In this document: piece by piece, positions 20,195-22,906 of the stretch
How positions within the stretch are numbered: position 1 is the first letter of the stretch
How the letters are laid out: each line of letters opens with the position of its first letter
Assembly (NCBI RefSeq): GCF_002954265.1
Contig: NZ_PPSL01000001.1
Coordinates: forward strand, 682,001-746,000
Direction: 5' to 3'
DNA: 64,000 nucleotides
From: Flavipsychrobacter stenotrophus
Lineage (GTDB): Bacteria; Bacteroidota; Bacteroidia; Chitinophagales; Chitinophagaceae
Position numbers and translations under genes: made by a program
Notes under the pieces: model-generated
The model's input: the letters and a program-made list of their open reading frames with translations, nothing else
Told to the model about the DNA's origin: nothing
Databases searched by the model: none

Positions 20195-20833
20195 CTAGTC
20201 CTTATCCGGCTGCGGGGTATACCTCAGATACGGCTTTACGATTTTTACGCCCTTCGGGAATTTTGTCTGAGCATCTTCGGTGCTTACAGAAAGGGCTATG
20301 ATCACATCTTCACCGTGCTTCCAGTCGGCAGGAGTAGCCACGCTATATTCTGCAGCTAGTTGTAGTGAGTCAATAACGCGAAGCACTTCCGTAAAGTTGC
20401 GGCCGGTAGAGGCAGGGTAGGTGAGGGTCAGCTTTATCTTCTTGTCTGGGCCTATAATAAATAGTGAGCGAACAGTTGCGGTGGCCGATGCATTAGGATG
20501 TATCATATCATACAGTTCCGCCACATTGCGGTTTTCATCGGCTATTATCGGAAAGTCGACAATTGTATGTTGTGTTTCGTTGATGTCCGCTATCCAGCCA
20601 AAGTGTTTGTCTATCGGGTCTACACTAACAGCCAGTACTTTCACATTGCGCTTTGCGAACTCATCTTTAAGTTGCGCTGTTCGCCCTAGTTCGGTCGTAC
20701 AAACCGGCGTGTAGTCGGCTGGGTGCGAGAATAATATACCCCAGCTATCGCCCAGGTATTCATGAAACCTGATGTCGCCCACCGATGTGATGGCGCTGAA
20801 ATCGGGAGCGGTATCTCCGAGTCTTAATGACAT
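20195..20833 (-). CDS. 1-Cys peroxiredoxin (Prx6 type)
   Basis: A 212-residue peroxidase with the peroxidatic motif HPADYTPVCTTE (Cys45). It has no second cysteine, so it is a 1-Cys enzyme. The C-terminal extension (ADWKHGEDVIIALSVS…KPYLRYTPQPD) is that of the Prx6 subfamily. It reduces H2O2 and organic hydroperoxides with a thiol donor. It is the last gene of the leader/thioesterase/comA operon, 52 bp after comA. That context fits thiol or sulfite-related redox control. Confidence 0.92.
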   Translation of the reverse strand: MSLRLGDTAPDFSAITSVGDIRFHEYLGDSWGILFSHPADYTPVCTTELGRTAQLKDEFAKRNVKVLAVSVDPIDKHFGWIADINETQHTIVDFPIIADENRNVAELYDMIHPNASATATVRSLFIIGPDKKIKLTLTYPASTGRNFTEVLRVIDSLQLAAEYSVATPADWKHGEDVIIALSVSTEDAQTKFPKGVKIVKPYLRYTPQPDKD

Positions 20834-20885: not shown

Positions 20886-21671
20886 CTAAATTTTCTGTTT
20901 CGCTTCTTTGTTTTTATTGAGGTATAAGTAGAAAGTGTCACCCCTCAGTCCTATGCGCATGGCTTCCAGTGCTATGAGTTCTGAAGGCGCTATATTGCCC
21001 AGGTTCACATTAGCTCCAAGTAGTTCGAGGAAGTACAGTTGCTGCGCCTTCTGTGGAGCCTCCCATATTATCTGCTCCGCAGGAATCTGGGTGAGTATTT
21101 CCTGCACCAGTCCTTCACGAACTTCACCTGTGCCCCTGTATATACCTACATTGCCTGCTTCGCGTGCTTCCGCTATCACATAAGATGAGCCAGCTTGTAG
21201 CTCTGCCCGCATCAGTTCTATCCATTTGTAAGGCGGAATGATGTGCTCAGCATCTTTAGATCCCACTTCAGATAATACGGTCACATGTTTGGCTAGCTGC
21301 TCTATATACCGGCACTTGTCGGCATGCGGTATGGTTATAGATCCGTCCGATACTTCTACATATTGCAGGTTGTATTCCTTTACGAGGTTTAGGTAATCTT
21401 CAAATTGACCACGGACTATAAAAGCTTCGAACAGTGTTCCGCCAAAGTACACCGGTATATCAAACTCGCGGTATATCTCCATTTTACCGATAAGGTTATT
21501 GGTAACGAATGCAGTACCAAAGCCTAGTTTTACAATGTCGGCATATGCGGCAGATACAGATAGGAAATCTCTTACCCCTCTTAATCCCAGTCCTTTGTCC
21601 ATTATCATGGTTAGTCCATTTACTCTCGGTTTGGCTGTGCGGGCAGGTATGCTATTTAATTGAAAATTCAT
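20886..21671 (-). CDS. comA: Phosphosulfolactate synthase (ComA family)
   Basis: A 261-residue TIM-barrel enzyme that joins sulfite to phosphoenolpyruvate, giving (R)-phosphosulfolactate. Recognisable family segments are TMIMDKGLGLRGVRDFL near residue 22, DIVKLGFGTAFV, YFGGTLFEAF, YVEVSDGSITIPH and EVGSKD. In methanogens the product leads to coenzyme M, and in Bacillus to sulfolactate. Bacteroidota do not make coenzyme M, so the product here probably feeds sulfolactate or cysteate-type sulfonates, perhaps sulfonolipids; that last step is inference. It is the middle gene of an operon behind a Cys-rich leader. Confidence 0.88.
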   Translation of the reverse strand: MNFQLNSIPARTAKPRVNGLTMIMDKGLGLRGVRDFLSVSAAYADIVKLGFGTAFVTNNLIGKMEIYREFDIPVYFGGTLFEAFIVRGQFEDYLNLVKEYNLQYVEVSDGSITIPHADKCRYIEQLAKHVTVLSEVGSKDAEHIIPPYKWIELMRAELQAGSSYVIAEAREAGNVGIYRGTGEVREGLVQEILTQIPAEQIIWEAPQKAQQLYFLELLGANVNLGNIAPSELIALEAMRIGLRGDTFYLYLNKNKEAKQKI

Positions 21672-21712: not shown

Positions 21713-22102
21713 TTATGCGAAAGCCGGCATTCGCGTGGTAACGTGGTCTTTCGATTGGAAGACGAATCGCCCCTCACCAATGGTTATTTTTTTATTGGTT
21801 CGCTTGCGGATAATGATGTCTATCAGCAGACTGTCGTTTCTGGTAGTAGTGTATTGCGACTCAATTTCAACGGCATCTCCCAATGCTGCCTGATCAATAA
21901 AATCAATCTCATAATGAGATGCAGATATACGATCGTAATTGATACTGCCGAAAGCCTTTTTAATTGCCTGGTCGTTCAGCTTTATCATTTCATTAAGTAG
22001 CTTGCACACTGCCAGTACGCCTTCTTTGTTCAGATTCTCATTGCCTACTATAAAACGTTTGGTCAGTAGGCTATAGTTCTTTAGTTGTTCTGTAAATTCC
22101 AT
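21713..22102 (-). CDS. Hot-dog fold thioesterase-like protein
   Basis: A 129-residue protein. The central helix is followed by HYEIDFIDQAALGDAVEIES and TIGEGRFVF, the pattern of acyl-CoA thioesterases (4HBT type: D/N-F, then A-x-x-GD-x-V-x-IE). The start is placed at 22102. The frame stays open to 22174, but those extra codons are the terminator hairpin itself and have no family resemblance. It is the first structural gene of the comA operon, 41 bp before comA. The substrate is unknown; the link to ComA suggests an acyl or sulfonate conjugate. Confidence 0.7.
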   Translation of the reverse strand: MEFTEQLKNYSLLTKRFIVGNENLNKEGVLAVCKLLNEMIKLNDQAIKKAFGSINYDRISASHYEIDFIDQAALGDAVEIESQYTTTRNDSLLIDIIIRKRTNKKITIGEGRFVFQSKDHVTTRMPAFA

Positions 22103-22140: not shown

Positions 22141-22176
22141 AAAAAATGGCTTCACGCTGTGTGCGTAAAGCCATTT
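22141..22176 (-). terminator. Attenuator terminator between Cys leader and operon
   Basis: On the minus strand AAATGGCTTTACGC (22176-22163), a 5-base loop and GCGTGAAGCCATTT (22157-22144) form a 14-bp stem with one G·U pair. A run of six T follows directly (22146-22141). It sits after the leader ORF and before the first structural gene, the position of a transcription attenuator. Confidence 0.75.
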
Positions 22177-22203
22177 AATAAAATGTTCATTAAATAAAAG
22201 CTT
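22168..22203 (-). promoter_or_regulatory. Candidate antiterminator helix
   Basis: In the minus-strand RNA, AAGCU (22203-22199) can pair with GGCUU (22172-22168), and AUUUAAU (22195-22189) with AUUAAAU (22179-22173), leaving a 3-base bulge and a 9-base loop. This helix uses nine bases of the terminator's 5' arm, so the two folds exclude each other. Its 5' arm overlaps the leader stop codon, so a ribosome finishing the leader would prevent it and one stalled at the first Cys run would allow it. Confidence 0.55.
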
Positions 22204-22294
22204 AACAGCTACAACAGCATCCGGTTATTGTTTTACAACAACAACAGATATTCTGTGCAGCAATTTTGCTATTTAATGTATTGATGTTTTTCAT
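22202..22294 (-). CDS. Cysteine-rich leader peptide, 30 aa
   Basis: A short ORF read on the minus strand from ATG 22294 to TAA 22204-22202. It encodes an N-terminal MKNINTLNSKIAAQN followed by ICCCCKTITGCCCSC: eight Cys codons in the last 14 codons, in runs of four and three. It lies ~25 bases after the predicted transcription start and just before a terminator hairpin, ahead of a sulfur-metabolism operon. This is the layout of an amino-acid attenuator leader that senses charged Cys-tRNA. Alternatively the peptide could bind metal in its own right. No homology search was possible. Confidence 0.72.
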   Translation of the reverse strand: MKNINTLNSKIAAQNICCCCKTITGCCCSC

Positions 22295-22317: not shown

Positions 22318-22331
22318 TTTGACCGGTCAAA
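22318..22331. promoter_or_regulatory. 14-bp perfect palindrome at the leader promoter
   Basis: TTTGACCGGTCAAA is fully self-complementary. It overlaps the end of the -7 element and the expected transcription start of the Cys-leader operon, a classic repressor position. Confidence 0.55.
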
Positions 22332-22360
22332 GATAATGATAAATATTTTAGTCCACCAAA
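22328..22360 (-). promoter_or_regulatory. Promoter of the Cys-leader/comA operon
   Basis: On the minus strand -33 TTTG (22360-22357), a 21-bp spacer and -7 TATCTTTG (22335-22328) match the Bacteroidota TTG…TAnnTTTG consensus. Expected start of transcription is ~22322, giving a ~28-base lead to the leader ATG. Confidence 0.65.
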
Positions 22361-22371
22361 TTAGTAGACTA
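22349..22371. promoter_or_regulatory. Inverted repeat centred on the -33 element
   Basis: TAGTCCAC, seven bases, GTAGACTA: an 8-bp inverted repeat with one mismatch whose spacer contains the -33 TTTG. A dimeric regulator bound here would block RNA polymerase. The neighbouring Rrf2 gene is the obvious candidate. Confidence 0.55.
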
Positions 22372-22483: not shown

Positions 22484-22906
22484 ATGCTCTCAAAGAAAGC
22501 TCAGTATGCACTTAAAGCCACCGGATACCTTGCTACAAGGTTTAACGGAGGCCCTGTGCAGATATCAGAGATATCAGAAAGGAAGAAGATCCCACTAAAA
22601 TTCCTTGAAAATATTCTGCTGGAGCTTAGAAAAGCCGGTGTACTGGAAAGTAAAAAAGGTAAGGGTGGGGGATACTACCTGCTTGAATCGCCCGAAAAAG
22701 TTTCTTTGGCAAAGATCATCCGAATAGTGGATGGTCCCATCTCTATGCTGCCATGTGTGAGTCTACACTTCTATAAGAAATGCGCTGATTGCGAGGAAGA
22801 TGTATGCAAGATCAACCAGGTATTCATTGAAACACGAGACGCAACTATAGGCGTGCTGGAGCATAAGACCCTAAACGATATCATAGAAGGAGTAGCGAAA
22901 AAATAG
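22484..22906 (+). CDS. Rrf2 family transcriptional regulator
   Basis: A 140-residue winged-helix protein beginning MLSKKAQYALKATGYLA, the standard Rrf2 N-terminus. It carries the GxGGGYYL wing motif. A Cys cluster (C91, C100, C103, C108) lies where IscR/NsrR-type members hold a Fe-S cluster. Other Rrf2 proteins (CymR) sense cysteine supply through protein partners. It is divergent from the Cys-leader/comA operon, whose promoter carries two palindromes, so it probably controls that operon and perhaps itself. The specific signal is not determined by sequence. Confidence 0.9.
   Translation: MLSKKAQYALKATGYLATRFNGGPVQISEISERKKIPLKFLENILLELRKAGVLESKKGKGGGYYLLESPEKVSLAKIIRIVDGPISMLPCVSLHFYKKCADCEEDVCKINQVFIETRDATIGVLEHKTLNDIIEGVAKK

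Follow-up and report, generated by a model that had tools for sequence, protein, structure and literature searches.

A candidate cysteine-codon attenuator ahead of a thioesterase-comA-peroxiredoxin operon in Flavipsychrobacter stenotrophus, with similar leaders in related Bacteroidota

The question raised by this locus is what a short reading frame rich in cysteine codons, followed by a strong hairpin, does ahead of an operon that encodes a thioesterase-like protein, a ComA-type protein and a peroxiredoxin. The window, that is, the whole stretch of 64,000 nucleotides of F. stenotrophus DNA that was analysed, had been interpreted in a first-pass annotation as containing the logic of an amino-acid attenuator. 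That logic is supported by conservation in four of four genomes, by tandem cysteine leaders with complementarity in relatives, and by cysteine leaders at cysC-cysD and sulfite reductase genes. The preferred reading, to which a probability of roughly 0.83 is assigned, is that the frame encodes a leader peptide whose cysteine codons govern a ribosome-mediated transcription attenuator, that its promoter is overlapped by an Rrf2-type operator, and that relatives carry likewise constructed devices. Anatomy, conservation, complementarity and gene context were observed directly; the start site, translation, stalling, termination, read-through and the signal are inferred, and there are no expression data.

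Classical attenuators such as those of trp, his, leu and ilv combine a leader ORF containing runs of the regulatory codon, switching helices, and a terminator with a U tract. The leader ORF of the window has the first of these features, being short and containing runs of a single regulatory codon. It lies on the minus strand at 22202..22294 (MKNINTLNSKIAAQNICCCCKTITGCCCSC followed by the stop; ATG at 22294, TAA at 22202) and is kept in four genomes. Its 30 codons include eight for cysteine, arranged as a run of four (codons 17–20, 22235..22246, minus strand) and a run of three (codons 26–28, 22211..22219, minus strand), with codon 30 (22207–22205) likewise specifying cysteine; the ORF of this composition had been described earlier without a strand and is confirmed here on the minus strand. 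Given the codon frequencies of the window, the probability of at least eight Cys in 30 codons is 1.3e-5. The window contains 882 ATG-initiated ORFs of 8–45 amino acids, 11 of which have at least four Cys including a CC pair, and only one of these 11, the leader itself, has a terminator-like hairpin 3–80 nt downstream. Four consecutive TGY codons occur twice in the window (0.17 expected) and at 119 sites in the whole genome, versus 26 for a reversed control pattern. As a leader finder the genome scan for this pattern was too unspecific and was dropped (the first 30 of the 119 sites were fetched). A strict leader detector applied to 1.77 Mb of strand (loci L001–L118) gave four matches, namely the window copy (L112) and L031 and L032, all at the thioesterase-comA operon, and a marginal match in L012.

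The intrinsic terminator expected of a ribosome-mediated attenuator is present behind the leader. The hairpin, AAATGGCTTTACGC-ACACA-GCGTGAAGCCATTT, occupies 22144..22176 on the minus strand and has 14 pairs, one of them G.U (dG -20.4); its U tract of six T lies at 22141..22146 (minus strand), three of the T being within the stem. The competing antiterminator helix joins AAGCT...ATTTAAT (22203–22189) to ATTAAATGGCTT (22179–22168) with dG -6.2. Its 5' arm, region 2 (AAGCUUUUAUUUAAU, 22188..22203, minus strand), starts on the leader stop codon TAA, and nine bases of its 3' partner, AUUAAAUGGCUU, belong to the 5' arm of the terminator stem, region 3 (22163..22179, minus strand) being common to the antiterminator and the terminator. 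Folding of both structures, which the first-pass annotation had proposed as a check, bears out its 14-bp terminator ending in six U as well as its antiterminator that takes up nine bases of the terminator arm and has its 5' arm on the stop codon. A further helix absent from that annotation pairs region 1 (CATTAAATAGC / CAUUAAAUAGC, ORF codons 6–9, 22268..22278, minus strand) with region 2 at dG -8.1, and the classical 1:2 / 2:3 / 3:4 order is therefore possible. The leader RNA as a whole folds better than 200 of 200 shuffled sequences (z -5.8). An antiterminator that excludes the terminator thus exists by sequence, but in the window group its pairing does not exceed that of shuffles in the arm-only test given below. 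A known riboswitch or T-box is ruled out, since no Rfam family reaches its gathering score in the window and none does so at the leaders of the related loci scanned, where only two tRNAs and a TPP riboswitch were matched. The TPP riboswitch (RF00059, 63.5 bits) is in a locus of the same genome without a leader (L114, 1608–1699, contig C11), where it precedes an ORF that by eye resembles an outer-membrane receptor and stands beside a weak match to the Rrf2-type box.

Upstream of the leader, a palindrome typical of Rrf2 operators, TAGTCTACTAATTTGGTGGACTA, is located at 22349..22371 between the leader and a divergent Rrf2 family regulator gene (22484..22906, plus strand, PF02082); binding by the Rrf2 protein is inferred. 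The operator pattern is found without mismatch at two sites in the genome, and with up to three mismatches at 12 sites versus two for the reversed control pattern; palindromes that resemble it by eye are also found in L031, L032 and G262. The second perfect copy lies at position 43633 of contig C5 (L111), ahead of a PF03458 gene (annotated in Pfam as glycine transporter), and relatives of that gene follow tandem cysteine leaders and a thioesterase gene in other genomes. Between the operator and the leader, TATCTTTG at 22328..22335 (minus strand) is a putative -7 box, for which there are no transcript data; it resembles the -7 motif of Bacteroidota, TAnnTTTG. A transcript start near 22321, about 27 nt before the ATG, is no more than a guess from that motif. 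cysH is also present in 15 of the best 30 Rrf2 loci fetched (loci of up to ~3.4 kb), and its presence beside many Rrf2 relatives ties the regulator to sulfur. Protein searches matched PF03458 in 141 and Rrf2 in 244 of 294 genomes; no new cysteine leader was recognized by the detector in the best 30 loci of each, which gave only weak flags in L184, L185 and L199.

Put together, these elements would operate as follows. Transcription would begin near 22321 from a promoter overlapped by the Rrf2-type operator. When charged Cys-tRNA is ample, the ribosome is expected to finish the 30-codon leader and to cover most of the 5' arm of the antiterminator, in which case the 14-bp terminator would form and the transcript would end at about 180 nt. 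When Cys-tRNA is short, the ribosome would stall in one of the two cysteine runs, which start 45 and 18 nt short of the ORF end, the free arm could pair with the 5' arm of the terminator, and polymerase would enter the thioesterase-comA-peroxiredoxin genes. In relatives, devices of this type, frequently arranged as a series of two, are presumed to act before the thioesterase gene (with a PF03458 gene next in four cases) and before cysC-cysD and sulfite reductase genes. The device of the window and the similar ones before cysteine-making genes in relatives together suggest that these bacteria probably sense cysteine shortage by ribosome stalling near the beginning of the mRNA.

The first gene of the operon (21713..22102, minus strand) encodes a hotdog-fold thioesterase-like protein of 129 amino acids. 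It has no Pfam or NCBIfam match; its AlphaFold2 model (mean pLDDT 81.4) has as best PDB match 5kl9, a putative acyl-CoA thioesterase (E 4.4e-7, TM 0.63, 16% identity). The second gene, comA (20886..21671, minus strand), belongs to the phosphosulfolactate synthase family (PF02679, E 3.6e-89). Its product scores 260.7 bits on TIGR03849, under the archaeal equivalog cut-off of 280 bits, and its nearest named relative, at 97%, is in a metagenome-assembled genome of F. stenotrophus. The third gene (20195..20833, minus strand) encodes a peroxiredoxin with a 1-Cys type C-terminal domain (PF00578, PF10417) and is likely part of the same operon, the intergenic gaps of 41 and 52 bp suggesting one transcript by inference. 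None of these genes serves cysteine biosynthesis, which counts against the attenuator reading, and cysteine-making genes (cysC-cysD, sulfite reductase) are found behind cysteine leaders only in relatives. No match to PF01507 was found in the genome, which is 98.85% complete, so that sulfate reduction by the PF01507 route is probably absent. Genes of stress type lie around the operon between 20195 and 24941: the peroxiredoxin, a MarR regulator, a universal stress protein and a nitroreductase.

Four genomes carry the thioesterase-comA pair with an Rrf2 gene: that of the window, G595 (L031), G593 (L032) and G262. A search for a Cys-run ORF with a hairpin at this pair in other genomes had been proposed with the original annotation, and both elements are retained in all four. 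The order of leader, thioesterase, comA, peroxiredoxin and divergent Rrf2 gene is kept in G262, G595 and G593. Within the runs the codons swap TGT for TGC and cysteine is retained; the first run is reduced to three in G262 (Tyr at one end) and L032 (His at one end), and in L032 the last Cys is replaced by Arg. The sequence after the stop has diverged in L032 and by eye is still able to pair (GCTTTTG with CAAAAG-GC), with no significance in the shuffle tests. A device specific to comA is ruled out: 78 of 80 comA loci lack the thioesterase gene, the Rrf2 gene and the leader (more than 700 nt of upstream sequence being available in 78 of the 80), and the leader therefore goes with the thioesterase gene. 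The earlier placement of the attenuator ahead of comA was correct for this operon and too narrow as a description, as the leader tracks the thioesterase gene. A thioesterase profile (A2) searched in 396 genomes of the order gave 22 weak matches beyond the genome's own gene, none of which had a comparable leader in the sequence fetched.

Outside this group, two short leaders in series, each with a terminator, occur in eight further genomes. In seven of these (G221, G079, G089, G062, G251, G171 and G596) they precede relatives of the thioesterase gene, and in G169 a DUF2721 gene (PF11026); one such pair reads MITIKHTCRCKTTFR and ...KKHTTRCCIGLTARC, both up to the stop. An extra ORF separates the leaders from the thioesterase gene in G062 and G079. 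Only one Cys is present in the first leader of G062, which counts against the attenuator reading, and the first leader of G079 is irregular, without a clean frame up to the hairpin. A PF03458-type gene follows the thioesterase gene in G089, G079, G171 and, by eye, G596. In the sampled genus (g1) the thioesterase query matches six of 11 genomes, all six with cysteine leaders; in the family sample it matched 10 of 294, eight with cysteine leaders. The remaining two are weak matches (G206 and G282; E 7e-5 and 2e-4) without a leader plus terminator, and only 338 nt of upstream sequence were available in G282.

The peptides of these relatives are alike beyond their cysteines. A KH-x-CC motif is common to several leaders, and seven of the eight second leaders end in Arg-Cys-stop, always encoded by CGA TGT TGA, the eighth ending in Gln-Cys-stop. 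The end CGATGTTGA (Arg-Cys-stop) is identical in seven of the eight tandems (L129–L134, L227, L252), and pairing explains this identity incompletely. A lone ORF, MVCKLNSKARC followed by a stop, is found after an Rrf2-like palindrome in G076 (L239, about 950), without a Cys run or evident terminator; its end, TCA AAG GCA CGA TGT TGA, is identical to that of the second leader of G079.

A covariance model (R1) built from the ends of second leaders and their terminators was searched in 396 genomes of the order and led to two loci in other families, CCCC before cysC-cysD in G409 and CCCCC before sulfite reductase in G323. The model is weak, as its best family match outside the training set (L226, 3.3e-5) has no cysteine leader and the leader of the window was missed; its negatives therefore mean little. 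Among 15 new terminator-matched loci, four (L259, L261, L264 and L267) contain short ORFs with Cys that a lax detector picked up as well; these are taken for chance occurrences. PF01507 was then the basis for reading 25 regions (758 kb of strand) around matches in 18 chosen genomes; G409 and G323 were chosen for their leader matches, and the other 16 were chosen blind to leaders, most of them from earlier match lists. ORFs were filtered for CCC, or CC with four Cys, so that leaders with few Cys would escape. Within the 25 regions, seven Cys-run ORFs are followed by a terminator, and every one of them precedes a cysC or sulfite reductase gene of its own strand. G409 accounts for three, a single leader at cysC and a tandem pair at sulfite reductase (...CCCCCCCMSNWEAL and ...LCCCCCYCCCCNRAWKAYVSSITLSKK, up to their stops), G470 for two, in tandem at sulfite reductase (CCCCCC each), and G546 (CCCC) and G323 (CCCCC) for one each; the runs are of four to seven Cys, and two of the cases are tandem. 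Six of the 25 regions contain a sulfite reductase match, and four of these six have terminator-bearing cysteine leaders. In the other two, G085 and G055, a Cys-run ORF lies 84–93 nt before a cysH match, behind boxes that by eye are Rrf2-like, and no terminator was found behind it by the scan. No sulfate-assimilation leader was found in the stretches read of 12 of the 18 genomes, which counts against the attenuator reading, though several of these stretches hold no sulfite reductase; among these genomes, G572 has no PF01507 match, G357 has a single match below the cut-off, and G320 has a four-Cys ORF before cysC with no run of three and no terminator.

To measure complementarity, the end of each leader, from -30 to +20 relative to the stop, was paired with the terminator 5' arm of its own unit and with those of other units. 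For 15 units at thioesterase or DUF2721 genes the mean is -13.07 kcal with the own arm versus -9.15 kcal when permuted; for 22 units it is -12.44 versus -8.73 kcal, and in a 20-unit run (without L031 and the first unit of G079) -13.46 versus -8.91. In all three, p is 5e-5, the floor of 20000 permutations. The 15- and 22-unit sets do not include L031, G262, the irregular first unit of G079 or either unit of G596. The seven sulfate-assimilation units alone reach a permutation p of only 0.076, which counts against the attenuator reading. In the arm-only test, in which leader ends were shuffled, 15 of 22 units give p < 0.05 and seven fail; the four units of the window group are not better than shuffles (p 0.28, 0.28, 0.19 and 0.24). 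With the 12 nt spacer included, 14 of 17 units give p < 0.05 (window 0.038, G262 0.088, L032 0.246), and spacer bases could then occupy both sides. The units were selected for having a hairpin, and neither complementarity test corrects for kinship.

The position of the ribosome was modeled by comparing a ribosome stalled at the first Cys run with one at the stop, with respect to the chance that the 5' arm of the terminator pairs upstream before the 3' arm exists. The model is one of equilibrium folding and not of kinetics, and the irregular G079 unit was excluded; the leading edge of a ribosome lies 16 nt from the first P-site base. For 25 of 26 units (21 of 21, and four of the five added later) these computations give the arm a higher chance of being sequestered when the ribosome is stalled at the Cys run than when it has reached the stop. 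For the window the values are 0.79 and 0.27; the effect is marginal in the first unit of G171 (0.61 versus 0.57) and the second of G062 (0.59 versus 0.47), and in G546 there is no effect (0.27 versus 0.27). Shuffled upstream sequence also sequesters the arm (0.24–0.59), which indicates that part of the stall effect is due to length; the stalled value is higher in 20 of the 21 units that this control covers, the five later ones not being among them. In the second sulfite reductase leader of G409 and of G470 the best arm lies 26–45 nt before the end of the ORF, so that a ribosome at the stop would leave it uncovered.

Several other explanations could account for parts of these data. The cysteine-rich peptide might itself bind metal or become oxidised and so stall the ribosome, in which case metal or redox state rather than Cys-tRNA would be sensed. 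The non-cysteine residues shared by relatives (KH-x-CC with its His-Cys pair in several, KHxCC...RC before the stop), the uniform ends of the second leaders, the lone G076 ORF that has such an end behind an Rrf2-like box without a Cys run or evident terminator, and the peroxiredoxin in the operon would all fit such a sensor. The leaders of cysC and sulfite reductase, however, share the Cys runs and neither KHxCC nor the Arg-Cys-stop end, and RNA pairing can account for part of the conservation of CGATGTTGA; this explanation is regarded as unlikely, though worth keeping in mind. It is also conceivable that the main target of the leader is translation or Rho-dependent termination, an idea put forward for mycobacteria, and that the hairpin is incidental. 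Mycobacterial leaders are described, in the part of the source available, as lacking conserved terminators (PMC1262725), and the cysH-linked Cys-run ORFs of G085 and G055 likewise show none by the scan; the strength of the terminator behind the window leader and the fit between leader end and own terminator arm across 22 units speak against an incidental hairpin, and the probability of this explanation is judged to be quite small.

More simply, the ORF might be a gene for a small functional cysteine-rich peptide, since its CCCC and CCC might serve to bind metal and a terminator after a gene is normal. Peptides from different loci have little but Cys in common, tandem copies each with a terminator precede sulfur genes, and the leader end is complementary to the terminator, all of which render a peptide gene hardly credible. 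Pure coincidence, with TGTTGTTGT being a common repeat and the hairpin unrelated to it, could draw on the excess of four-codon runs in the genome over the control and on the short ORFs flagged by the lax detector in four loci; it would have to explain why the leader is kept in four genomes, recurs before sulfur genes and is one in 882 among the short ORFs of the window, and can for practical purposes be set aside.

The attenuator reading invites a wider proposal, which is offered tentatively and with odds somewhat below even. Cysteine attenuators, often in tandem and with an Rrf2-type operator, would be a standing system of the Chitinophagales. In sulfate assimilation the tandem form would sense cysteine in a graded manner or with two thresholds, and the fixed Arg-Cys-stop end of the second leader might contribute an effect of the nascent peptide or of slow termination. 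After losing sulfate reduction, one lineage would have moved the device to the comA operon, for sulfonate formation and thiol stress. A possible reason, for which there is no test, why cysteine shortage should turn on the sulfite-fixing ComA is a fall in usable cysteine under oxidative or sulfite stress, to which the thioesterase-comA-peroxiredoxin operon would respond. If the attenuator reading is true, leader-peptide control would be extended to a phylum where the sources found mention it only in passing, and to an amino acid whose described leaders, as far as the sources available extend, lack conserved terminators. With the tandem form, the effect that placing two similar sensors in series has on a response could be tested directly. 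The device would connect promoter control by Rrf2 with cysteine supply and the formation of sulfonate, and would suggest that the thioesterase and the PF03458 protein may take part in sulfur metabolism.

Leader-peptide attenuation itself is known; what would be new is a terminator-antiterminator cysteine attenuator, tandem in relatives, in another phylum. A literature search, with most subscription journals and supplements outside it, turned up no cysteine attenuator in Bacteroidota, in agreement with the first-pass annotation, which knew of no described case; absence remains unproven. The mycobacterial polycysteine ORFs of Canestrari et al. 2020 are said, on the strength of a title, to be leaderless, and the lack of an intrinsic terminator that marks such leaderless small ORFs is not a trait of the window leader. 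Within the phylum, clues to leader-peptide attenuation at other genes in Flavobacterium psychrophilum (PMC9723704) and short ORFs in long 5' UTRs of Bacteroides thetaiotaomicron (PMC7366714) are comparable as attenuation-like leaders, and no cysteine leader is named in the portions of these two sources that were available.

A close likeness is to Actinobacteria. Cys-rich leaders upstream of sulfur genes are known there, as the first-pass annotation had stated: a 2005 study predicted Cys-run leaders that lacked terminators (PMC1262725), those of mycobacteria were called in 2015 a possible first case of cysteine-directed attenuation (PMC4633059), and polycysteine attenuators in mycobacteria are the subject of Canestrari et al. 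2020, cited in PMC9094748, each of these sources having been available in part. Common to both groups are a short Cys-run ORF before cysteine or sulfur genes and a proposed response to cysteine (PMC1262725; PMC4633059). The actinobacterial leaders, according to the accessible text, have no conserved terminator hairpins (PMC1262725), whereas the window has an intrinsic terminator and an antiterminator; the Bacteroidota devices differ further in belonging to another phylum, in the Rrf2-type operator at the promoter and in their tandem arrangement in relatives. With the trp, his, leu and ilv attenuators, to the extent that these are covered in the excerpts available, the window leader shares the codon run, a possible 1:2 / 2:3 / 3:4 order and a U-tract terminator (PMC1262725, PMC2965389). 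It departs from them in the use of the Cys codon, in an operon that is not biosynthetic for that amino acid, and, in relatives, in two units in series. Such a series is paralleled by mgtCBR of Salmonella, where a single leader contains a pair of short ORFs with separate switches, tandem attenuators for different signals, ATP and proline, in the account partly available (PMC3641672). The mgtCBR ORFs thus respond to two signals, whereas in the Bacteroidota tandems cysteine codons are found in both leaders in nearly all cases.
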